64,000 bases of DNA from the NCBI GenBank assembly GCA_026392115.1, contig JAPLCQ010000028.1, positions 21,382 through 85,381 on the forward strand, written 5' to 3'. Below, piece by piece: positions 2,819-39,077 of the stretch. This DNA is from Armatimonadota bacterium. Its GTDB lineage: Bacteria; Armatimonadota; Chthonomonadetes; Chthonomonadales; CAJBBX01. Under the pieces are notes generated by a model. That model worked only from the letters and a program-made list of their open reading frames with translations, made no database searches and had not been told where the DNA came from. The stretch's first letter is position 1, and each line of letters starts with the position of its first letter. Both the position numbers and the translations under genes were made by a program.

Positions 2819-5449
2819 ATGGGCCTGGGCGCGCTATGGGCCGCCGGCGCGGTCGCCGCGCTGAACGCCTCGGTGGGGCAGGGCGCGGAGTTCCGCTCGG
2901 TCCGCATCGTCATCGGCTCGGCGGCCTGCGCCGTGGAGCGCAACGCGGCCGCGCTGCTGGCCCAGCGGCTGGCCGAGCCCGCGGGCCTGCCCGTGCGAGT
3001 GGCCGCCGAGCCGCCGGCGCCGCCGCCCGCGCCCGGCGAGTTCGCCATCCTGCTCGGCATCCCGGCCAACCATGGCGGCGTGCGGCGCCTCATGGCCGAC
3101 CTGGGGCTCGCGCCGCTCACCGGCCTGGCGCCCGGTCCCGAGGGCTTCCTCCTCCGCACCGCTCTGGTCGACGGCGCGCCGGGGCTTCTGGCGGCCGCCG
3201 TGGACGAGCGCGGCGCCGTCTACGCCGCCGGCGAGATACTGCGGCGGGCTCACTTCACGGCGGGCGGGATCCGCTTCCCGGCGCACCTGAGCCTCCGCAC
3301 GGCGCCCGCGTTCGAGCTGCGCGGCACGCAGTTCGGCCAGAGCGGCGTGGCCCTGCAGAAGGCCGGTGCGCGCCCCTGGACGCAGGCCGAGACGGAGCAC
3401 AAGATCGCCGACTTCGCCCTGGCCGGAGCCAACACCCTGCAGGCGCCGATCACCAGCGCCGAGGGCGACCCGACCTACCGTTACATCAAGGGGCTGGGCC
3501 TCAAGACCATCGTCCACATATCGGCCAACGCCGGTTCGGGTCCGCCCGAGTGGCGCGCCGCCGAGTCGATCGGTCGCGATGGCTACCTCTGCCCCTCGGT
3601 GCCCGAAGCCCGGGCGGAGCTGCTCCGGGCCATGGAGGCGAGTTTCCGCAACGCGCCGCACTTCGACTATGTCAGCTTCGCCGGCGGCGACGGAGGCGGC
3701 TGCGAGTGCGACCGCTGCAAGCCCTACGGCCTCGCCTTCATCCGGCTCTGCGAGGACTACGCGGCCATCGTCCACCGCTACCACCCCGACGCGCAGGTGA
3801 TGGTCACGAACCAGAAGTTCAGCAACGAGGACGACCTGGCCATCTTCCGCTACCTGCGCGAACACCCCGGCACGTGGCTCCGGGCCTTCGTCTGCGGGCC
3901 GGGCTCCGACGCCATGTCCTGGCAGCCGGGCCACCGCCAGAACCACCGCATGGACCTCTTTCGCTACCCCGGCTTCGCGCCGCCGGGCCGCTACCTGCAG
4001 GAGATCCTCCACGAGTTGCCGCCGCAGCAGGACCTCGCCCTCTACACCGAGCTGACCCACTGGCGCTACTCGCAGAACGGCTTCGCGCAGGCCTACCCGC
4101 GGCCCGACAAGGAGGGCGCCCAGCCGCCGCACTGGGGCCACGGCGTCTACGAGCGGATGCCCGACCCCTACCTGACGCAGGTCTACGACCGCCTCACCTT
4201 CTTCGCCTGCCCGCGCTGGGTGCATCGGGCGTTCGGCGAGACGATGCGCTACTCCATCGGCGATTGCACCCACTCCAGCGGCACGCACGACCACGCGAAC
4301 CAGTGGATATGGCAGCGGCTCCTCTGGAACCCGCAGATGACGGTGCGGCAGGCCGTCGACGAGTACGCCCGCGCCTGGTTCGGTCCCGAGGCCGCGCCGC
4401 AGATGGCCCTGGCCCTCTTCGCGATGGAGGAGTACCTGCGGTGGGACCCGGCCACGCCGCTCCCGCGCAAGGCCTCGCTGCGGCGCTACCGCGACGCGGT
4501 GCGGGCCGCCGGGCGCGCCATGCCGGGCTTCCTGCGCGACAAGAGCTGGCTCTGGCGCGAGTACGCCCAGAAGGCGGCCATCGACCGCCGCACCCAGCTC
4601 GCCGTGGCGCAGCAGATGGCGCTGCAGGCGGGCATCGAGCAGGCGTGCGCCCGGGCGCTCAAGGGCGGAGACCCGAACCAGGCGATCCGCCTCTGCCTTG
4701 CGCGTCTGGCCGCCCGGCGCGAGACCGCCGCCATGCGCCGCCTGCGCGAGGAGGCCCAGCGCCTGGGCGAAGAGAGCAACGCCCTCTACGGCGTCCGCTC
4801 CGAGGGGCTGCGGTCGTTGGACCACGACTTCGTGGGCCTGGGCTGGCTGAAGCGACAGCTCCAGCGCGCCCTTGCCGCCGCTCCCGACGCCAGGCGGGAG
4901 TTGCTCGCCCAGATCGCCGACTACGAGGACGCCGGCCCCGGCGGCTTCTATGACAACCTGGGCAGCTATGAGGCCGCTCCGCACCTGGTCAACGGCGCCC
5001 CCTACGACCACGGCCAGCCCTACGTCTCCGAAATGCTCTCTGAGGGCAACCGCCTGAGCCAGCGCACCATGTGCGGCACGCAGGACGAGGCGTGCGGCCT
5101 GGAGCTGCGCTACGAGGGCCTCGACCCGGCTGCGCGGTACCGCGTGCGCGTTACGCTGGTGCGCCCCTGGTTCCAGCCCCGCTACGTCCAGCGCATGAAC
5201 CAGAAGTCCGAGAGCCTCTACGCCGACGGCCTGCCGCTGGCCCTGGATCTGGAGCTGCCCGAGAAGATGAGCGACCAGTTCACCTTCGACATCCCGCCCC
5301 AGGCCACCGCCGACGGCGCCCTCGCCCTGAGCTTCCGAAAGAGCCCCGACGCGGCCGCCGGCGACCGCGTGAGCGTGGAGCAGTGGCGCAACACGGGCGG
5401 CTGGGGAACCCTCTGCAGCGAGGTCTGGCTGACGAAGGCGGGTCGGTGA
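2819..5449 (+). CDS. Secreted DUF4838 / alpha-glucuronidase-like glycosidase
   Basis: A strong ribosome binding site, GGGGGAGG at 2806-2813, sits 5 bases before the ATG at 2819, which opens with a signal-peptide-like run (MGLGALWAAGAVAALN). The upstream ATG at 2792, overlapping the previous stop, is the alternative. The 876-residue protein has an N-terminal domain of the type preceding GH20/GH67 barrels, then a TIM-barrel part containing the cysteine cluster CECDRCKPYG at about residue 300. That cluster is typical of the DUF4838 family (glycosidase-like proteins of Bacteroidetes and Planctomycetes). The C-terminal roughly 150 residues look like a beta-sandwich. The substrate is unknown; the neighbouring TIM-barrel protein suggests joint action on a polysaccharide. 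Confidence 0.75.
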   Translation: MGLGALWAAGAVAALNASVGQGAEFRSVRIVIGSAACAVERNAAALLAQRLAEPAGLPVRVAAEPPAPPPAPGEFAILLGIPANHGGVRRLMADLGLAPLTGLAPGPEGFLLRTALVDGAPGLLAAAVDERGAVYAAGEILRRAHFTAGGIRFPAHLSLRTAPAFELRGTQFGQSGVALQKAGARPWTQAETEHKIADFALAGANTLQAPITSAEGDPTYRYIKGLGLKTIVHISANAGSGPPEWRAAESIGRDGYLCPSVPEARAELLRAMEASFRNAPHFDYVSFAGGDGGGCECDRCKPYGLAFIRLCEDYAAIVHRYHPDAQVMVTNQKFSNEDDLAIFRYLREHPGTWLRAFVCGPGSDAMSWQPGHRQNHRMDLFRYPGFAPPGRYLQEILHELPPQQDLALYTELTHWRYSQNGFAQAYPRPDKEGAQPPHWGHGVYERMPDPYLTQVYDRLTFFACPRWVHRAFGETMRYSIGDCTHSSGTHDHANQWIWQRLLWNPQMTVRQAVDEYARAWFGPEAAPQMALALFAMEEYLRWDPATPLPRKASLRRYRDAVRAAGRAMPGFLRDKSWLWREYAQKAAIDRRTQLAVAQQMALQAGIEQACARALKGGDPNQAIRLCLARLAARRETAAMRRLREEAQRLGEESNALYGVRSEGLRSLDHDFVGLGWLKRQLQRALAAAPDARRELLAQIADYEDAGPGGFYDNLGSYEAAPHLVNGAPYDHGQPYVSEMLSEGNRLSQRTMCGTQDEACGLELRYEGLDPAARYRVRVTLVRPWFQPRYVQRMNQKSESLYADGLPLALDLELPEKMSDQFTFDIPPQATADGALALSFRKSPDAAAGDRVSVEQWRNTGGWGTLCSEVWLTKAGR

Positions 5450-5727: not shown

Positions 5728-7779
5728 ATGACGGAACTACAGAGGTTACTGCAGGGTGTGATGGACGCCGCGGGCAGCGCAGCAATGATCTGTCGCGCCT
5801 TTCCGCGGCTCCTGCGCCCCCTGCTACTGGCCCTTGTCGTGGCGGTCGCATCGTCGGCCCTCGCGCAGAGCCGGCCCGACACCGTCTGGAAGGTGGCTCT
5901 GGCCGCCCAGCCTACTGCTTACGCGGTTTCGCCGGACGGCACACTCCTCGCCTGCGGCTACGAGAACAGCCTGGTCACCGTCCACCGCACCGAAGACGGC
6001 GCCATGGTGCATACCCTTACGGCACCAAGTGCGGTGAAGGAGGTGTTGGCACTGGCCTTTGCCGGCGGTGGGCAGTACCTGATGGTCAGTCGTCGCATGA
6101 ATACCGCCAGTAACAGGTTTGTCGGCTACTACCGGATGTCTGACGGGCAGGTCGAGGAGACTTTCCACACGCAGATCCCTGCAGGAGAAGCATGGTCGTT
6201 GGCCACAAGCCCGGACGGTCGCTACATAGCATGGGGGGCAACACCAGTTAAGGTGAATCCAACACCCAACGGATGGGATTACCGCACGATCGGCATCTAC
6301 GACACAACGAACAAGGTTATGGATCGGTATTTCGAGCGTAACGGGTCCGCCGAGTCCATCACCTACTCAAACTCCGGTGCTCTGCTGGCTGTCGGCAACT
6401 ACGGAGCCCTCACGCTCTGTCGGTTGGCAGACAACACGCTGATACCGATACCGAACGCCTCCGGCTATGAGCAACACACCAAGGCCGTCCTTTTCTCACC
6501 CGATGACACTCTCCTGGCCACCGGGGCCGGCCTGTATGCCTCTGGCCTGTCAAGCAGACCTTATGTGCGCCTGTGGAGCGTGGCGGAAGGCACGGTGGTT
6601 CGGACCCTTGCGGGCACCACGCTGGCGGCCAACAGCCTGGCGTTCATGACCGACGGGACCGTGCTGATGGCGGGCGGAGGCAGCTACAGCACCAATGCGG
6701 CCAGCAATAGTGCCACGGGCGGCGTCCTCTTCTGGCGGGTCTCAGACGGCGAGCTGCTGCGCGTGTGGGAGGACCCGTCCGACGTCAACCACTGCGTGCT
6801 CGACGCCAAGTTCTCGCCCGATCAGTCGATGATCAGCTATGTAACGCGCGGCGCCGAGCCCGCCCTGGTGCTGGCGCGCAATCCCTATGGCCCGACGGCG
6901 CCCACGTCCATCGACCTGCCCACCGTCAACGGCAGGATCGGCGAAAACGTCACCATTGCGGCCAACCTCTGGAACTCAGGGCGGCCCGTGGCCGACCGAG
7001 CGCTCACGGTGAGCATCGACGGGGTGGCGCTGGGCTCCGCAACCACCGACGCCGCCGGCCACATCGCCCTGCCGTACACGGTGCCCGAGGGCGCGGGCGC
7101 CGGAACGCGGGAGATTGCCGCCGAGTTCGCCGGTGACGCCACCTACAGCGCGACGCGCGCCACCGCCGGCCTCATCGTGGCGCAGGCCGCTTGCGGGCTG
7201 TTCCTGCCAGATCGAACCGCGCGGATCGAGACGGAGTGCCTTCTCAAGGCCTATCTCTACCGCCGCCACGACCATGGCCGGCCCGCGGGACGGACCATCA
7301 CCTTCGCCGTGGACGGCGCGGCCGTGGGCTCCGCCGACACCGATGCAGGCGGCCAGGCGGTCCTGCCCTACATCCTCCCGGAGGGCTCGGGGCCCGGAGC
7401 CCGCACTCTCACCTCGGCCTGGGCGGGCGACACGGCCTACGGTTCAGCCGGCGCCTCCTCTACCCTCACGGTCACGCCGGGGACGATCTACCTCTGGCTG
7501 CTGGAGCCGCGCTCCGTCACGAGGGGCGGCGCCGTCTACCTCCGCGCCTATGCCCGGTCCCTGCCCTACTACAACTGGAAGGCGGGCCTGGCCATCGGCT
7601 ATGCGGTGGACGGCACCGACGTGGGCATGGCCAAGACCAACGCCGACGGCCGCGCGGACTGGTACTACGTGGCGCCGCTGAACTCAACCGTGGGCGACCA
7701 CACGTTCACCTGCACCTTCTACGGCAATGCGCTCTACGGCCCAACCGAGCGCTCCGGGACGCTTACCGTTACGCCGTAA
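5728..7779 (+). CDS. Secreted WD40-repeat protein with three Ig-like domains
   Basis: The ATG at 5728 is preceded by GCAGGAGG at 5713-5720 with 7 bases of spacing; an earlier in-frame ATG at 5656 has no such site. The product (683 residues) starts with a polar stretch, then a hydrophobic signal (LLRPLLLALVVAVASSALAQ). Residues of about 60-390 contain WD40-type blades with repeated SPDGTLLA, SPDGRYIA and SPDDTLLA motifs, likely one beta-propeller. The C-terminal third is three tandem Ig-like repeats of about 95 residues, each with the pattern vDG.avGsa.TdaaG.a.lpY and a closing LTVTP-type strand. Such proteins are surface or extracellular binding scaffolds; no enzyme motif is visible. The gene has its own terminator and stands alone. 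Confidence 0.8.
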   Translation: MTELQRLLQGVMDAAGSAAMICRAFPRLLRPLLLALVVAVASSALAQSRPDTVWKVALAAQPTAYAVSPDGTLLACGYENSLVTVHRTEDGAMVHTLTAPSAVKEVLALAFAGGGQYLMVSRRMNTASNRFVGYYRMSDGQVEETFHTQIPAGEAWSLATSPDGRYIAWGATPVKVNPTPNGWDYRTIGIYDTTNKVMDRYFERNGSAESITYSNSGALLAVGNYGALTLCRLADNTLIPIPNASGYEQHTKAVLFSPDDTLLATGAGLYASGLSSRPYVRLWSVAEGTVVRTLAGTTLAANSLAFMTDGTVLMAGGGSYSTNAASNSATGGVLFWRVSDGELLRVWEDPSDVNHCVLDAKFSPDQSMISYVTRGAEPALVLARNPYGPTAPTSIDLPTVNGRIGENVTIAANLWNSGRPVADRALTVSIDGVALGSATTDAAGHIALPYTVPEGAGAGTREIAAEFAGDATYSATRATAGLIVAQAACGLFLPDRTARIETECLLKAYLYRRHDHGRPAGRTITFAVDGAAVGSADTDAGGQAVLPYILPEGSGPGARTLTSAWAGDTAYGSAGASSTLTVTPGTIYLWLLEPRSVTRGGAVYLRAYARSLPYYNWKAGLAIGYAVDGTDVGMAKTNADGRADWYYVAPLNSTVGDHTFTCTFYGNALYGPTERSGTLTVTP

Positions 7780-32909: not shown

Positions 32910-33857
32910 TCAGAACCCCGGCGGCGGCCCGCTCTGCGCCAGTAGTCGCCGGGCCTGGACCGTGTCTGCGCCGATCTGCTGTGCCAGCGCCTGCAGGTCG
33001 GCGAAGCGCCGCTGGTCTCGTAGCTTGGCAACAAATGCGAGACTGATGGCCTCGCCGTAGATTTCGCCGTCGAAGTCGAGCAGATGCGCCTCCACCAGCC
33101 GCCTGCTGGAGGCCAGGGTGGGTCGCACACCGATGCTGATGGCTGCCGGCGCTTGCCTGCCTCGTACCTGCGCCCAGCCCGCGTAGATGCCGTCGCCCGG
33201 CGTCAGGAGGTGTCTGGCGGGTCTGAGGTTGGCGGTGGGGAAGCCGAGGGTGCGCCCGATGCGGTCGCCCTCCTGCACCACGCCGTCCAGGACGTAACAG
33301 TGGCCCAGCAGCTCCGCCGCGCCGGCCACGTCGCCGTCCGACACCATGGCCCGGACCAGCGTGCTGGAGACGATCCGGCCCTGGAACCGGACGGGCGCGA
33401 CCACGATGAGCTCACAGCCCAGGCTTGCGCCCAGGTCCGCCAGCATGCCGGTGTCGCCCGAGCCGCCGCTGCCGAAGCGGAAGCCGTCGCCCACCACCAC
33501 GCACTTCGCGTTGAGGCCATCCACCAGCACACGTCGCACGAAGGTGAGCGGCTCCATGTCGCGGAGGGCGGCGTCGAAGGTGGCGGCGATGAGGTGGTCC
33601 ACGCCCAGAGCGCCGATGCACCGGGCGCGGCGGGCCGACGAGGTGATGTACCGCGGCGCGGCGGACGGTCGGAGGAGCTCCGCGGGGTGCCGATCGAAGG
33701 TGAACACGACGGACTGCACGCAGCGCCGGCGTCCGGCCTCGATCGTCTGTGCGATCAGCGACTGGTGGCCCAGGTGGACGCCGTCGAACGCGCCGATGGT
33801 CACGCAGGCGCCGGCGCGCGGGGCCGGAAACGCCTCCAGGCCGAACCAGCGCTTCAT
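32910..33857 (-). CDS. ribF: Bifunctional riboflavin kinase/FAD synthetase
   Basis: A 315-residue RibF. The N-terminal adenylyltransferase domain reads VTIGAFDGVHLGHQSLI with the HxGH motif. The riboflavin kinase domain has GRTLGFPTANLRP and IYAGWAQVRG, and a C-terminal FDGEIYGEAISLAFVAKLRD. It phosphorylates riboflavin to FMN and adds AMP to form FAD. The ATG at 33857 overlaps the truB stop by four bases (ATGA). As last gene of the infB operon it matches the common order truB-ribF; rpsO and pnp, which often follow, are not here, since the next gene is convergent. Confidence 0.95.
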   Translation of the reverse strand: MKRWFGLEAFPAPRAGACVTIGAFDGVHLGHQSLIAQTIEAGRRRCVQSVVFTFDRHPAELLRPSAAPRYITSSARRARCIGALGVDHLIAATFDAALRDMEPLTFVRRVLVDGLNAKCVVVGDGFRFGSGGSGDTGMLADLGASLGCELIVVAPVRFQGRIVSSTLVRAMVSDGDVAGAAELLGHCYVLDGVVQEGDRIGRTLGFPTANLRPARHLLTPGDGIYAGWAQVRGRQAPAAISIGVRPTLASSRRLVEAHLLDFDGEIYGEAISLAFVAKLRDQRRFADLQALAQQIGADTVQARRLLAQSGPPPGF

Positions 33858-34771
33858 GCCGCCTCGCCCTGTCCGATGGAGGCCAGTACTTTCCAGGGCT
33901 GCACGTGGCAGCCGACGGCCTTGCCCAGGCCCAGCAGCGCTTCGCCGTGCCAGACGCTGAGGATGGCCCCCTCGTCGGCGCTGCATTCACCCACGGCCTG
34001 GCCGTGCAGGAACGCCAGTGCGTCGTCGAGGTTCACCATAACCTGCGTATGCGAGCCCATGGCAGCGTGGAGCCGGGCCCGGGCGGCATTGGCGAGCGCC
34101 TCGGTCCGCTCCACGGAGTCTAGCGGCAGGGCATCGGACAGAGCGAAGGAGCCCGACCTCGTGCGCCGAAGCGCCGACATGGCGGCGCCGACGCCGACCG
34201 CTGCGCCCAGGTCGGCGGCCAGCGTGCGGATGTAGGTGCCCGCCGAGCACTCGATCTCCAGCACGGCCTCGGGAGCCGGGCCCGGAGTGAAGGCCGTCAA
34301 CTCGAGCCGGGAGATGGTGATGGGCCGCGCCTCGCGCTCCACTTCCACGCCCTCGCGAGCCAGGTCGTAGAGGCGGCGCCCCTGGTGGTGCCGGGCAGAG
34401 ACCATGGGCGGAACTTGCAGGACAACACCCCGGAACGCGGGTAGCCGCGCCTCCACCTGCTCCGCCGTCAGGCCCGACGCGTCTGCCTCGCCGGTCGTCA
34501 GCCCTGTGGTGTCCAGCGTGTCGGTGGTCAGCCCGAAGCGTACGCCGGCCACGTACTCCTTCGTCGAGGCCGAGAGGGTCTCCATGACCCGCGTGGCGGA
34601 GTCGATGCAGAGCGCCAGGACACCCGTGGCCATGGGGTCAAGGGTGCCGGCGTGGCCGATGCGCTTGGTGCCGAGGACGCGCCGGAGTCGGTCGACCACG
34701 TCATGCGACGTGATGCCCGCGGGTTTGTCGACGACCAGGACGCCGCCGGCGGCGGGGATGATGCGCTCCAC
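33854..34771 (-). CDS. truB: tRNA pseudouridine(55) synthase
   Basis: A 305-residue TruB with the core GVLVVDKPAGITSHDVVDRL, then the catalytic motif HAGTLDPMATGVL (D45 in my numbering) and the GTYIRTLAADLG block. It isomerises U55 in the T-loop of tRNAs. Start: GTG at 34771 (VERIIPAAGG); a TTG at 34780 overlapping the nrnA stop (TTGA) is equally possible. Neither has a strong ribosome site, consistent with translational coupling to nrnA. The PUA-like C-terminal region (SHTQVMVNLDDALAFLHGQA) is present. Confidence 0.93.
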   Translation of the reverse strand: MERIIPAAGGVLVVDKPAGITSHDVVDRLRRVLGTKRIGHAGTLDPMATGVLALCIDSATRVMETLSASTKEYVAGVRFGLTTDTLDTTGLTTGEADASGLTAEQVEARLPAFRGVVLQVPPMVSARHHQGRRLYDLAREGVEVEREARPITISRLELTAFTPGPAPEAVLEIECSAGTYIRTLAADLGAAVGVGAAMSALRRTRSGSFALSDALPLDSVERTEALANAARARLHAAMGSHTQVMVNLDDALAFLHGQAVGECSADEGAILSVWHGEALLGLGKAVGCHVQPWKVLASIGQGEAA

Positions 34772-34776
34772 GCTGC

Positions 34777-35742
34777 TCAACGGGAGAGCTGAGCCTCCAC
34801 GGCGGCAAGGACGGCGGCCTCGGCGGCCGCAAGGCCCATGTGCACCGTGCATCCCGCCGCCATGACGTGCCCGCCGCCGCCGAACCGCCGGGCCACGGCG
34901 GCCACGTCGACGCCGTCGCGCGACCTGAGGCTGACGCGGACGCCCCGCTCGCCGGCCTCCCGGAAGAGCATGCCCACCCGGACGCCCCGCATGGAGCGGG
35001 CGTGGTTCACCACGCCCTCGCTGTCGGCGTCGTCGGCCCCGGTCTCCGCGAAGTCGGCGGCCGTCAGACGGACCCAGGCCACCTGTTGCTCGTGGGCGAA
35101 CTGGAGCGAGGAGAGGGCGCGGGCAAGCAGGCGCACGCTGGCCGGCGACCGGCTCTCAAACACCAGTTCGCTGATATACGCGGGACAGGCGCCTCGCCGC
35201 ATGAGGTCTGCGGAGACCTGCAGCGTGGAAGGCGAGGTGTTCATGAAACGGAACGAGCCGGTGTCGGTCACAATGGCGCAGAGCAGGCACTCAGCCATAT
35301 CCCGCGTGATGGGGACGCCCAGCCGCCGGATCAGCTGGTACGCCATCTCACCGGTGGCCGCGGCCTTGGAGTTCACGCAGGCGATGTCGAACGGATCGCC
35401 CTGGTCGCCGTGATGGTCCAGGCGCATGCTCACGCGGGCCGAGCGCATGGGCTCCGCCGCCGCGCCGAGCCGAGCGTAGGCCGACGTATCGCAGACGATG
35501 GCGAGGTCGAAGCCGCGCTCATCGGTGGTGGGGCGGATATCCTCCTGCCCCGGCATCCAGCGGTAAATTTCGGGCACGCCGTCGGTTGAGAGCGGAACAG
35601 CGCGCTTACCCAGGGCCCGGATGGCTAACGTGAGCGCCAGCACGCACCCAAGGCTATCCCCATCTGCGTTCTCGTGTCCGGCCAGTACGACGCTGTCGGC
35701 GCTAAGGATCGCGTCCGTCGCCAGGCGGTACGGGACTCTCAT
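34777..35742 (-). CDS. nrnA: DHH-DHHA1 phosphoesterase (NrnA-like nanoRNase/pAp phosphatase)
   Basis: A 321-residue DHH-family enzyme. Its first motif is GHENADGDSLG (H23, D27, D29), its DHH motif LDHHGD (109-111), a third metal site in AIVTDTGSFRFMN, and the DHHA1 substrate-binding glycine motif RFGGGGHVMAAG at the end. NrnA degrades short RNA oligonucleotides and 3'-phosphoadenosine 5'-phosphate. The start ATG (35742) lies inside the 3' end of rbfA (41-base overlap), which couples translation. The order rbfA-nrnA-truB-ribF is standard. Confidence 0.93.
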   Translation of the reverse strand: MRVPYRLATDAILSADSVVLAGHENADGDSLGCVLALTLAIRALGKRAVPLSTDGVPEIYRWMPGQEDIRPTTDERGFDLAIVCDTSAYARLGAAAEPMRSARVSMRLDHHGDQGDPFDIACVNSKAAATGEMAYQLIRRLGVPITRDMAECLLCAIVTDTGSFRFMNTSPSTLQVSADLMRRGACPAYISELVFESRSPASVRLLARALSSLQFAHEQQVAWVRLTAADFAETGADDADSEGVVNHARSMRGVRVGMLFREAGERGVRVSLRSRDGVDVAAVARRFGGGGHVMAAGCTVHMGLAAAEAAVLAAVEAQLSR

Positions 35743-36094
35743 GTGTGGTTGGTTCCGTGGAAATGTTGTGGAGGAGCTCGAAGATGCGGGCGCCGCGGGG
35801 AATGCCCTCGTCCGCCCGGAAGTCGATCTCCGGTGCGACGCGCAGGTGGGCGCGCCGTGTGAACTCGCCGCGGATCCGGCCGGCCGCGCTCCGCAATGCC
35901 GCAAGGCCCTTCGCGCAGTCGTCCTCCGACCCCATGATGCTCACGAAGACCTTCGCATACCGGAGGTCCCGCGTGATCTCAGCGGCGGTGATGGTGATGA
36001 AGCCGAGGCGTGGGTCCTTCAGATCCTTGTACAGCATGTCGCTGATCTCCTGGATCATCAGGTTCTGCACCTGTACCTGGCGTACGGAAGGCAT
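35702..36094 (-). CDS. rbfA: 30S ribosome-binding factor A
   Basis: The 130-residue product shows the RbfA pattern: VQVQNLMIQEISDMLYKDLK, then DPRLGFITITAAEITRDLRY with AKVFVSIMG, and RIRGEFTRRAHLRVAPEIDF. It binds free 30S subunits and helps 16S rRNA maturation, mainly at low temperature. It follows the ylxP gene by 36 bases and overlaps nrnA. The KH-type core and length are normal. Confidence 0.95.
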   Translation of the reverse strand: MPSVRQVQVQNLMIQEISDMLYKDLKDPRLGFITITAAEITRDLRYAKVFVSIMGSEDDCAKGLAALRSAAGRIRGEFTRRAHLRVAPEIDFRADEGIPRGARIFELLHNISTEPTTHESPVPPGDGRDP

Positions 36095-36130: not shown

Positions 36131-36412
36131 CTAGTCGATCTGCAGGTCCACGCCTTCGACGTCGACCTCGGGGTTGGCCTCGATATGGTCCAGCAGCGAG
36201 TCCAGCGCCCGGTTGGTATGCTGCCGCGAGTTGCTGACGGCGGCCACGGCGATCACGGAGTGCGTCCAGCAATCCAGATCGTCGATTTCGGCGATCGACA
36301 CGTTGAACTTCCGGCGCGCCCGATCGATCAGGCTGCGCAGGACGTGGCGCTTGTCCTTGAGCGATGCGGCGCCCGGGATGCCCAGCCCAATCGTCATGAT
36401 GCCGACGTGCAT
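36131..36412 (-). CDS. ylxP: YlxP/DUF503 family protein
   Basis: This 93-residue protein matches DUF503: MHVGIMTIGLGIPGAASLKD, KRHVLRSLIDRARRKFNVS, then an alternating SVIAVAAVSNSRQHTNRALD. YlxP proteins sit between infB and rbfA in many Firmicutes, Chloroflexi and related phyla and are thought to act in translation or ribosome assembly; the molecular role is unclear. The sequence just upstream holds a strong hairpin whose 3' arm supplies the only G-rich stretch before the ATG. Confidence 0.9.
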   Translation of the reverse strand: MHVGIMTIGLGIPGAASLKDKRHVLRSLIDRARRKFNVSIAEIDDLDCWTHSVIAVAAVSNSRQHTNRALDSLLDHIEANPEVDVEGVDLQID

Positions 36413-36469: not shown

Positions 36470-38401
36470 CTAGCGCTCGACCTCGCGCATCTGGTAGGCC
36501 TCGATGATATCGCCGGCCTGCACTTCCGTGTAGTCGCCGATGACCATGCCGCACTCGAAGCCCTGGGCCATCTCGCGGACGTCGTCCTTGATGTGCTTCA
36601 GGGAGTCGATACGGCTCTCGAGGATGATGTCGCGCCCGCGGCGGATGCGGACCTGGGCGTTGCGCAGGATTTTGCCCGACGTGACGTAGCAGCCTGCGAT
36701 GATGACGCCGCGCGGCGTCCGGAAGTGCGCCCGGACCTCGGCGGTACCCAGAGCGATCTCCTCGTAGATCGGAGCCAGCATGCCCTTCATGGCCCGCTCG
36801 ACGGACTCGGTGAGTTCGTAGATGATCTGGTACGTGCGGACGTCGACGTTCTCGCGCTGGGCGGCCATCTGGGCCTGCTGGTCGGCGCGAACGTTGAACC
36901 CGATGACCACGGCTTCCGCCGCCGAGGCGAGCATCACGTCGTTCTCGCCGATGTTGCCCACGCCGCTGTGCAGGATCCGCAGGCTGACTTCCTCCTGCGG
37001 GAGCTGCTGGAGCTGGCCAGCCACGGCCTCCACGGAGCCCTGCACGTCGCCCTTGAGGACGATGAGCAGCTCCTTGGCGGCGCCTTCCTGGATCCTGCGC
37101 CGGATGTCTTCCAGCGTGACGCGGGTGACCTTGGTCAGGCGGGCCGCACGCTGGTGCTCGGCGCGCTTCTCGGCCGTCTGCCGGGCCTCGCGCTCGTCCT
37201 TCACCACGATCATCTTGTCGCCGGCCATGGGGACCATGGAGAGGCCGAGGACCTCGACAGGCGTGGCCGGGGTGGCCTTGGTCAGGCGGTCGCCGCGCTC
37301 GTTCATCATGGCCCGGATGCGGCCATGGGCCAGACCGCAGACGATGCAGTCGCCCACGCGGAGCGTGCCTTCCTGCACCAGCACGGTGGCCACAGGGCCC
37401 TTTCCGGCCTCCTGCTGGGCCTCGACGATGACGCCGGAGGCCTTGCCGTGGGCGTCCGCCTTCAGCTCCATGACGTCGGCCTGGAAGGCGAGCAGCTCGA
37501 GCAGCTCTTCGATGCCCTGGCCTGTCTTGGCGCTCATGGGCAGGCACTCGATGTCGCCGCCGTACTCGCGCGGGACGAGGTTGTGCTCCATCAACTGGGT
37601 CTTGATGCGGTCCGGATTGGCGTCGGGGCGGTCCATCTTGTTGATGGCGATGATGACGGCCACCTCGGCCGCGCGCGCGTGGTCGATGGCCTCGACGGTC
37701 TGCGGCATGATGCCGTCGTCCGCCGCCACAACCAGCACCGCGATGTCGGTGACGCTGGCGCCTCGGGCTCGCATGGCGGTGAACGCCGCATGGCCGGGCG
37801 TGTCAAGGAACGTGACCTTGCGCTTCTCGCCTTCGTACTCGACCTCAACCTGGTAGGCGCCGATGTGCTGGGTGATGCCGCCGAACTCGCCGTCCACCAC
37901 CTTGGTGTTCCGGATGGCGTCGAGCAGGGTCGTCTTGCCGTGATCGACGTGGCCCATGATGGTCACCACCGGCGGGCGCACCGTGGGGCCGCCGCCGGGG
38001 CCTTTGTGCCTCTGCGGCGCGGCGGCTGCGGCCTTGATCTCCGGCGCCTTGACCTTCAGGGTGTAGCCGTAGGCTGCAGCAAGCTGCTTCGCGACGTCGG
38101 GGGCGAGACGCTGGGTGATGCCAGAGAGGATGCCCATGGCCATGAGCTTCTTCTGCAGGTCCGCCGCTGAGACGTTCAGGGCGGTGGCCAGGTCCTTCAC
38201 GGTGGCGGATGCGGCCACTTCGGCCACGCGGCCGCCGTCGGCCGGTTGGGCGTACATTTCGCGCACGGCCTGTGCGGTGTCGCCGTCGATGATGGCGGCT
38301 ATTCCAGGCACGGCTACGCCGAGGTCATTCAGGGTCGCTACAAGGTCGGCCGGGGCTATGCCCAGCTCCTTCGCAAGATCGCTGACACGAGATCCCGTCA
38401 T
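36470..38401 (-). CDS. infB: Translation initiation factor IF-2
   Basis: A 643-residue IF-2. Two IF2_N modules are at about 1-50 and 66-115. The GTPase has G1 GHVDHGKT (150-157), G3 DTPGHAAFT and G4 NKMDRPD. Domains II-IV follow ([52 protein letters not shown]). It brings fMet-tRNA to the 30S subunit and drives subunit joining. It is short relative to E. coli (about 890) because the N-terminal linker is reduced. The GAGGTGA site sits 7 bases before the ATG. nusA and rimP, normally just upstream, are not here: infB heads its operon behind a structured leader. Confidence 0.97.
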
Positions 38402-38732
38402 GGGTGGGTCACCTCATTCCATTGTGGTGTCTCCGAGCGCATAGGCCCCATCCGGGAGGCTGCGCACATGAGTGCTGGAGAGTTGGCGAATCGCACAGAG
38501 AGAGTGGGCTCCATGCCCACTCTCCCGATGCTTCAGTAACCATACAGTCTAGCACATCGACCGAGGCCCCATCCGGAGCGCCGAACGGACGCCCGCAGCG
38601 TGCGGCGATGCCGGGCGCTCCCGGCGGCGTGGAGCGCTGTTCGGTCAGTGCGGTTTCGCCGTCGGCACGACACCGGTACCGGCCGCCGATCGGGGTCGGA
38701 TCGGCATACCGGAGTACAGGTATGCTGCTTTG
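38402..38732 (-). promoter_or_regulatory. Structured leader and probable promoter of infB
   Basis: This 331-base stretch holds no gene. A TGCTAGACT box (extended -10-like) at 38546-38554 (- strand) would give a leader of about 135 bases. A perfect 10-bp hairpin (38500-38509 with 38515-38524, 5-base loop) lies in it. The segment 38515-38525 can instead pair with 38477-38487 (10 of 11 positions), so two folds exclude each other. A smaller stem (GCGCA 38437-38441 with TGCGC 38461-38465) lies closer to infB. The remainder up to the PIN gene shows nothing clear. Confidence 0.5.
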
Positions 38733-39077
38733 ATGAAAGCCACTGTCGAGTTCGACGACGCCCTCTATAGGCTGCTGAAGCAGGACATCCCGCCGCCGTT
38801 GGTATCGGACCTGGTGATGGCCGAGACGTTCTTCGCCCTGCGTCACCACTACCACGTGCCCGAGACCGAGGCCCTGCAGGCCCTGTCTCGTCTCGCCCAT
38901 GACGTCCGCCTTGCGGTCACGCCTGCCGCCAAGCGCGTCCTGTCTGAGCCGCGGACGACCGGCGCCGGCTTCATCGATCGGCTCATCCACGCTGAGTACG
39001 CCGACCTGGAGGCATGCCTCCTAACGTTCGACAAGGCTGCGGCGCGGCTCGAGGGAGCACGCCTCATCGTTGGATAG
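38733..39077 (+). CDS. PIN-domain toxin lacking its N-terminus, with an antitoxin-like start
   Basis: The ATG at 38733 starts MKATVEFDDALYRLLKQDIP. The first 15 residues resemble the opening of ribbon-helix-helix antitoxins (MKtTVEidDeLyr). From about residue 22 the rest reads as a PIN domain: LVSDLVMAETFFALRHHY, then VLSEPRTTGAGFIDRLIHAE and CLLTFDKAAARLEG. The normal PIN opening with the first catalytic Asp (VxxDTN) is absent. At 114 residues it is short for a VapC. Likely an in-frame deletion fused the start of a vapB-type gene to the middle of its vapC partner. It should be inactive as a nuclease; alone it might still bind a partner. It stands divergent to infB. Confidence 0.7.
   Translation: MKATVEFDDALYRLLKQDIPPPLVSDLVMAETFFALRHHYHVPETEALQALSRLAHDVRLAVTPAAKRVLSEPRTTGAGFIDRLIHAEYADLEACLLTFDKAAARLEGARLIVG

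Follow-up and report, generated by a model that had tools for sequence, protein, structure and literature searches.

A family of Armatimonadota carries homologues of the rimP-leader hairpin at two unlinked genes, infB and nusA

Comparative analysis identifies the hairpin in the infB leader of this Armatimonadota genome as a relocated copy of the rimP-leader, a known promoter-proximal attenuator, and a second copy is found before nusA. What is new is the split, two-site arrangement; the RNA itself is already known in kind. We think it likely that the copy at infB acts as a rimP-leader attenuator through NusA-responsive early termination, by which infB would be regulated in trans.

The window, that is, the whole stretch of 64,000 nucleotides analyzed here, is part of genome G000 (5.7 Mb, 181 contigs; contig G000:C17). 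In it, infB is the first gene of the run infB - DUF503 - rbfA - DHH - truB, and the infB leader is the minus strand of 38402 to about 38540:

36470 to 38401, minus strand: infB (IF2, 643 aa; Pfam IF-2, IF2_N and GTP_EFTU)
36131 to 36412, minus strand: DUF503 (ylxP-type) gene
35702 to 36094, minus strand: rbfA
34777 to 35904, minus strand: DHH/DHHA1 phosphoesterase
33854 to 34852, minus strand: truB
38546 to 38554, minus strand: predicted extended -10 promoter TGcTAGACT (-10 hexamer TAGACT at 38546 to 38551; predicted 5' end near 38540)
38498 to 38526, minus strand: main hairpin GAGAGTGGGC-ATGGA-GCCCACTCTC, 12 bp including one G-U, 5-nt loop (10-bp core stem at 38500 to 38524)
38516 to 38522 and 38502 to 38508, minus strand: core arms of the main hairpin, 5' GAGTGGG and 3' CCCACTC, respectively
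38490 to 38501, minus strand: TCTCTGTGCGAT, following the core stem; U at 4 of its first 8 nt, without a run
38477 to 38487, minus strand: alternative partner GCCAACTCTCC, only in the genus
38437 to 38465, minus strand: further stem GCGCAGCCTC-CCGGAT-GGGGC-CTA-TGCGC, genus only
38409 to 38415, minus strand: Shine-Dalgarno GAGGTGA, inside the block GGAGA...RAATGAGGTGA that the alignment shows to be conserved in the family

Positions 38515 to 38524 form a perfect 10-bp stem with 38500 to 38509, with a 5-nt loop and a dG of about -24 kcal/mol, and counting the flanking G-U and G-C pairs brings the hairpin to 12 bp at 38498 to 38526. This confirms the 10-bp hairpin that an earlier, sequence-only reading of the same DNA had drawn between 38515-38525 and 38500-38509. 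The whole infB leader folds at z = -2.5; among 3000 dinucleotide-shuffled versions of it, 0.17% contain a perfect stem of at least 10 bp with a loop of 3 to 9 nt, and the main hairpin is unlikely to have arisen by chance.

The earlier reading had asked for a comparison of the leader in related genomes. In infB leaders taken from 30 relatives, the main hairpin precedes infB in all judgeable family genomes but one (10 of 11); the exception is G006, and G010, with too little upstream sequence, is left out of the count. In all judgeable genomes except G006, the infB leader reads GAGTGRG...CYCRCTC preceded by a TGnTATAAT-type box; in 8/10 of these leaders a TGnTATAAT-like box stands at the equivalent place, 22-27 nt before GAGTGGG, and the remaining two (L011 and L012) have GGTATAGTG-like boxes, seen by eye. 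In the leaders compared, the spacing from box to hairpin is mostly 22-35 nt, at which distance no other structure would form in the transcript ahead of the hairpin. No candidate passed a simple -35/-10 promoter scan of the infB leader, which is consistent with a promoter of the extended -10 type. Most sampled Armatimonadota carry the hairpin 20-230 nt upstream of nusA, the range for those outside the family being 24-230 nt. In other phyla, the sense-strand motif occurs in 31 of 79 infB contigs; among the Firmicutes and related contigs sampled, an ORF begins 6-163 nt after it, and this ORF encodes RimP in all 10 cases tested.

The stem also covaries. Among 38 distinct nusA and infB leader hairpins from the phylum, 8 of 12 pairs changed on both sides and 88.6% of cells pair; the covariation score is 0.273, whereas shuffled alignments give 0.171 (0/500) and slid controls 0.09-0.13, and RNAalifold recovers the main stem from this alignment unaided. 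A covariation check had been proposed by the sequence-only reading, and for the main stem its outcome is positive. The search pattern used to gather most of the 38 members holds five core pairs constant, so that their invariance is partly built in; four pattern-breaking members (L130, L141, L142, and L176) were added, two of which show a change from G-C to A-U at one of the five. Two further core pairs are left free on both sides by the pattern, and there 67 sequences hold only TA, TG, or CG and only GC, GT, or AT, and none of the 67 has CA or AC there, although the search pattern allowed them. That the structure is a plain constitutive hairpin or a product of chance, which a GC-rich genome in which some kind of hairpin is common might suggest, is hardly credible and is already refuted by comparative data, namely the cross-phylum sequence conservation, the fixed place, the covariation, and the two sites per genome.

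The sequence-only reading knew of no described RNA of this kind for infB, which has to be corrected, since the hairpin matches the rimP-leader of 2010, a terminator close to the promoter of rimP-nusA-infB whose stem has a conserved GGGc(...)gCCC motif (Naville & Gautheret 2010, PMC2965389). Like the rimP-leader, the window copy is a short promoter-proximal hairpin with a GGG...CCC core (GAGAGTGGGC...GCCCACTCTC) before a gene of what is usually the rimP-nusA-infB operon and with no conserved antiterminator, and its distance of 100 nt to the infB start falls within the 4-130 nt from terminator to gene start of the rimP-leader. The core is GAGTGGG/CCCACTC, as it also is in the Firmicutes rimP contigs examined. 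Unlike the rimP-leader, the window hairpin stands before a free-standing infB that is detached from nusA, the genome has a second copy in the classical place before its own nusA and no detectable RimP, and the window copy has a degenerate U-tract with no T-stretch directly behind the hairpin. On these comparisons, homology of the window hairpin to the rimP-leader is well supported. Rfam 15 gave no match in the window above the gathering threshold and only chance-level matches in the leader at E up to 10; this leaves room for homology, because the Firmicutes rimP leaders L034, L036, and L047 are equally unmatched.

A T-stretch follows the hairpin in most homologous infB and nusA leaders, in the family and in the phylum, and the infB copies of relatives have 4-7 U of 8 after the stem, with runs of up to 6. 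The window copy, which reads TCTCTGTG after the hairpin, has 4 T of 8 with a longest run of 1 and fails the terminator scan. Having no U-run, it may terminate only weakly or may have lost intrinsic termination, and we class it as a homologue whose tail is degenerate and as no more than a candidate terminator. The poor U-tract behind so stable a stem (-24 kcal/mol), and a core sequence conserved far beyond the needs of a terminator, could also point to a hairpin that is non-terminating at least in the genus and that either recruits a factor or stabilizes the 5' end of the mRNA (a pause or anti-termination site, or RNase protection). This is conceivable but rather unlikely, given that most homologues have U-rich tails and that early termination has been observed in Streptococcus agalactiae, where RNA-seq places it about 31 nt after the start of gbs0413-gbs0418, the rimP-nusA-infB-rbfA operon (PMC4448216). 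The S. agalactiae leader has a similar promoter-to-hairpin spacing, and its operon is intact, whereas that of the window's family is split.

In the sequence-only reading, the infB leader was a regulatory leader with competing stems; a structured, conserved regulatory leader with a covarying main stem stands, and the switch logic is not supported. The match of 38515-38525 to 38477-38487 at 10 of 11 positions is confirmed, and the leader element is identical in three members of the genus, among which as many as 17% of the fourfold sites of infB differ, as would suit a two-state attenuator or riboswitch in which 38515-38525 swaps between 38500-38509 and 38477-38487 upon a signal. We nevertheless regard such a switch as very improbable. 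The fold forced onto 38477-38487 reaches -46.6 kcal/mol versus -58.0 kcal/mol, which makes it 11.4 kcal/mol weaker, and mononucleotide shuffling gives the second pairing, judged for the 38477-38487 arm alone, only a marginal p of about 0.03. An equivalent is missing from 6 of the 7 other family leaders tested, with no comparable match in L006, L007, L009, L010, L011, and L012 (p 0.25-0.90) and a different, marginal match in L005 (p 0.04). The earlier reading had looked to covariation in the second stem as well, and there is none: the element is the same in 3/3 genus genomes, identical sequences allow no covariation, and 38477-38487 is therefore uninformative within the genus. Moreover, rimP-leaders generally lack an antiterminator; the exception is a tandem form of another kind, known from some Gammaproteobacteria (PMC2965389). 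Forced folding, shuffling, and a search in eight leaders of other genera or the same genus led us to reject the competing-stem switch. Judged as a riboswitch, T-box, or leader attenuator, in which both pairings would covary, the leader has covariation in the main stem only, and the weight placed on mutually exclusive stems as a hallmark of attenuators is unsupported.

Another stem had been noted before infB, and it is present at 38437-38465. In G002, the changes in this stem fall in the loop or turn one C-G into U-G, with pairing kept, which is weak evidence for upkeep of the pairing. Between G000 and G002, the leader has 4 differences in 139 positions compared with 62 in 364 infB fourfold sites, and because the whole leader is conserved in the genus, the mid-leader may have an additional genus-level function. 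A larger conserved aptamer between hairpin and start codon was considered and rejected, as nothing but the hairpin and the GGAGA...RAATGAGGTGA block stands out in the alignment of the family, and a mini-ORF ATGRAATGA over the Shine-Dalgarno was dropped, being absent in L006, L007, and L009. The block itself (window 38402-38435, minus strand) is found family-wide before infB and exceeds the length of a plain Shine-Dalgarno.

Some further observations concern the surroundings of the leader. A 12-bp direct repeat, CGGATGGGGCCT (minus strand), flanks the promoter-hairpin unit at 38443-38454 and 38564-38575; the repeat is absent upstream in G002, where the infB leader borders sequence unlike that beside the window's leader. 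Adjoining the infB promoter is a divergent ORF at 38730-39077 (plus strand, 114-115 aa), whose start resembles a VapB-type antitoxin (MKATVEFDDALYRLLK) and whose remainder has a weak PIN domain match (PF01850, E 0.014, below the cut-off); it may be what is left of a vapBC pair after fusion.

In G000, nusA lies on another contig, in the order rpsO-pnp-leader-nusA-ylxR. Its leader, TGTGCTATACTTTAGCCACGTTAGAGGGACCTTTTGAGAGCGGGGAGACCCGCTCTCTTGTCTTAT, has the same promoter type, spacing, and hairpin as the infB leader, and the hairpin, GAGAGCGGGGAGACCCGCTCTC (GAGCGGG...CCCGCTC), carries a compensatory change from T-A to C-G relative to the infB copy. A covariance-model search, one of the checks named by the sequence-only reading, found two sites in G000, at nusA (35.8 bits) and at infB (30.8 bits), a count that sets aside a reverse-strand match of the near-palindromic infB site. 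In 51 of 61 genomes, a match lies at most 300 nt upstream of one of the genes nusA, rimP, and infB. Among 181 phylum genomes, the hairpin adjoins infB only in family f1, the window's family, and in genomes outside f1 that have both on one contig it lies 1.4-3.5 kb upstream of infB; the counts over 61 and 181 genomes were read by eye from tables of matches versus nusA/rimP positions. As judged from this distribution, the split between ylxR and infB is a feature of family f1, in which the element reached infB by being carried along or duplicated.

The two-site pairing is not strict, since genus g8 lacks the nusA copy and G006 lacks both: in G009 and G011, which make up the g8 sample, the hairpin is found at infB alone, as a GAGTGAG/CTCACTC variant, and in G006 neither gene has it. 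The NusA proteins of these three genomes are each other's closest, and their state may reflect one loss event followed by a second loss. In the NusA sequences, nine columns differ between genomes with and without the nusA hairpin, but the three hairpin-less genomes seemingly form one lineage, and a NusA signature for the loss was therefore set aside as uninformative.

Two other features of these leaders deserve mention. In G005 (L189, G005:C29), the promoter and hairpin of the infB leader are duplicated, at 4896-4945 and 5928-5977 on the minus strand; the second copy is near-identical, lies about 1 kb upstream, and precedes a small ORF and a gene for an HNH endonuclease (PF01844, E 3e-11). The layout looks like the insertion of a cassette behind a leader that was duplicated in the process. 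The nusA leaders of the family have a second conserved hairpin just before nusA, GGCCGCC...GGGCGGC(C/T) with a T-rich tail (L114, about 5290-5345, minus strand; nusA leaders L175, L176, L178, L179, L180, L181, and L182), which is also present in genomes that have no GAGTGGG hairpin at nusA. The arrangement is possibly a tandem terminator.

The sensor of the rimP-leader has been named only as a proposal, RimP or NusA, with NusA proposed in PMC2965389. Pfam RimP_N found no match in G000 or in 57 of 61 phylum genomes, in a search for which 10 of 14 control genomes were positive, and RimP thus appears to be missing from most Armatimonadota. In three of the four RimP-bearing genomes (G038, G044, and G052), the hairpin stands before rimP. 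With RimP undetected in G000 and in 57 of 61 genomes, the hairpin of this phylum is unlikely to depend on it as sensor, and we rejected feedback by RimP on the same ground. The window's genome does have rbfA, while RimP is undetected in it.

The most likely trans-acting factor, and putative reader of the stem, is NusA. Transcription would start at the extended -10 promoter about 25 nt upstream of the hairpin, and the GAGUGGG/CCCACUC hairpin, as the first structure of the emerging transcript, would make RNA polymerase pause, so that a fraction of rounds terminates before infB. How often this happens would be set by the factor recognizing the conserved stem in the elongation complex, and plentiful NusA would then lower the transcription of infB as well as its own. 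In the window's family, the ancestral nusA-ylxR-infB operon has split after ylxR, and nusA and infB each have a predicted promoter and a hairpin; this would have turned a cis feedback loop into a two-site regulon, in which the NusA level acts as cis-linked feedback at nusA and in trans at infB.

Alternatively, the hairpin could serve feedback by IF2 or another factor, neither NusA nor RimP. This would suit genus g8, which keeps the hairpin at infB and has lost it at nusA; the loss counts against NusA, as an autoregulation site is expected to stay with nusA, and under NusA control g8 would have a regulator that no longer regulates itself. IF2 is, to our knowledge, not known as a transcription regulator. 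We consider such feedback improbable, since both genes keep the hairpin elsewhere in the family and published feedback evidence points to NusA (PMC2965389, PMC12288461, PMC4448216). According to PMC12288461, which cites Mondal et al. 2016, NusA of Bacillus subtilis autoregulates via NusA-stimulated intrinsic termination in the nusA-operon leader. As described there, B. subtilis resembles the present case in having a leader terminator upstream of the nusA operon with NusA as proposed effector, and differs in that regulation is in cis within one operon, whereas control of infB in the window's family would be in trans.

No transcription attenuator has been described as more ubiquitous than the rimP-leader, and yet the sources consulted give its sensor as a proposal only. 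That a phylum mostly without RimP has retained the hairpin speaks against a need for RimP as sensor. Unlinked nusA and infB genes, both with the hairpin, separate the candidate regulator from one of its targets, so that the factor that reads the stem, and the reason why IF2 and NusA are co-regulated, become directly testable.
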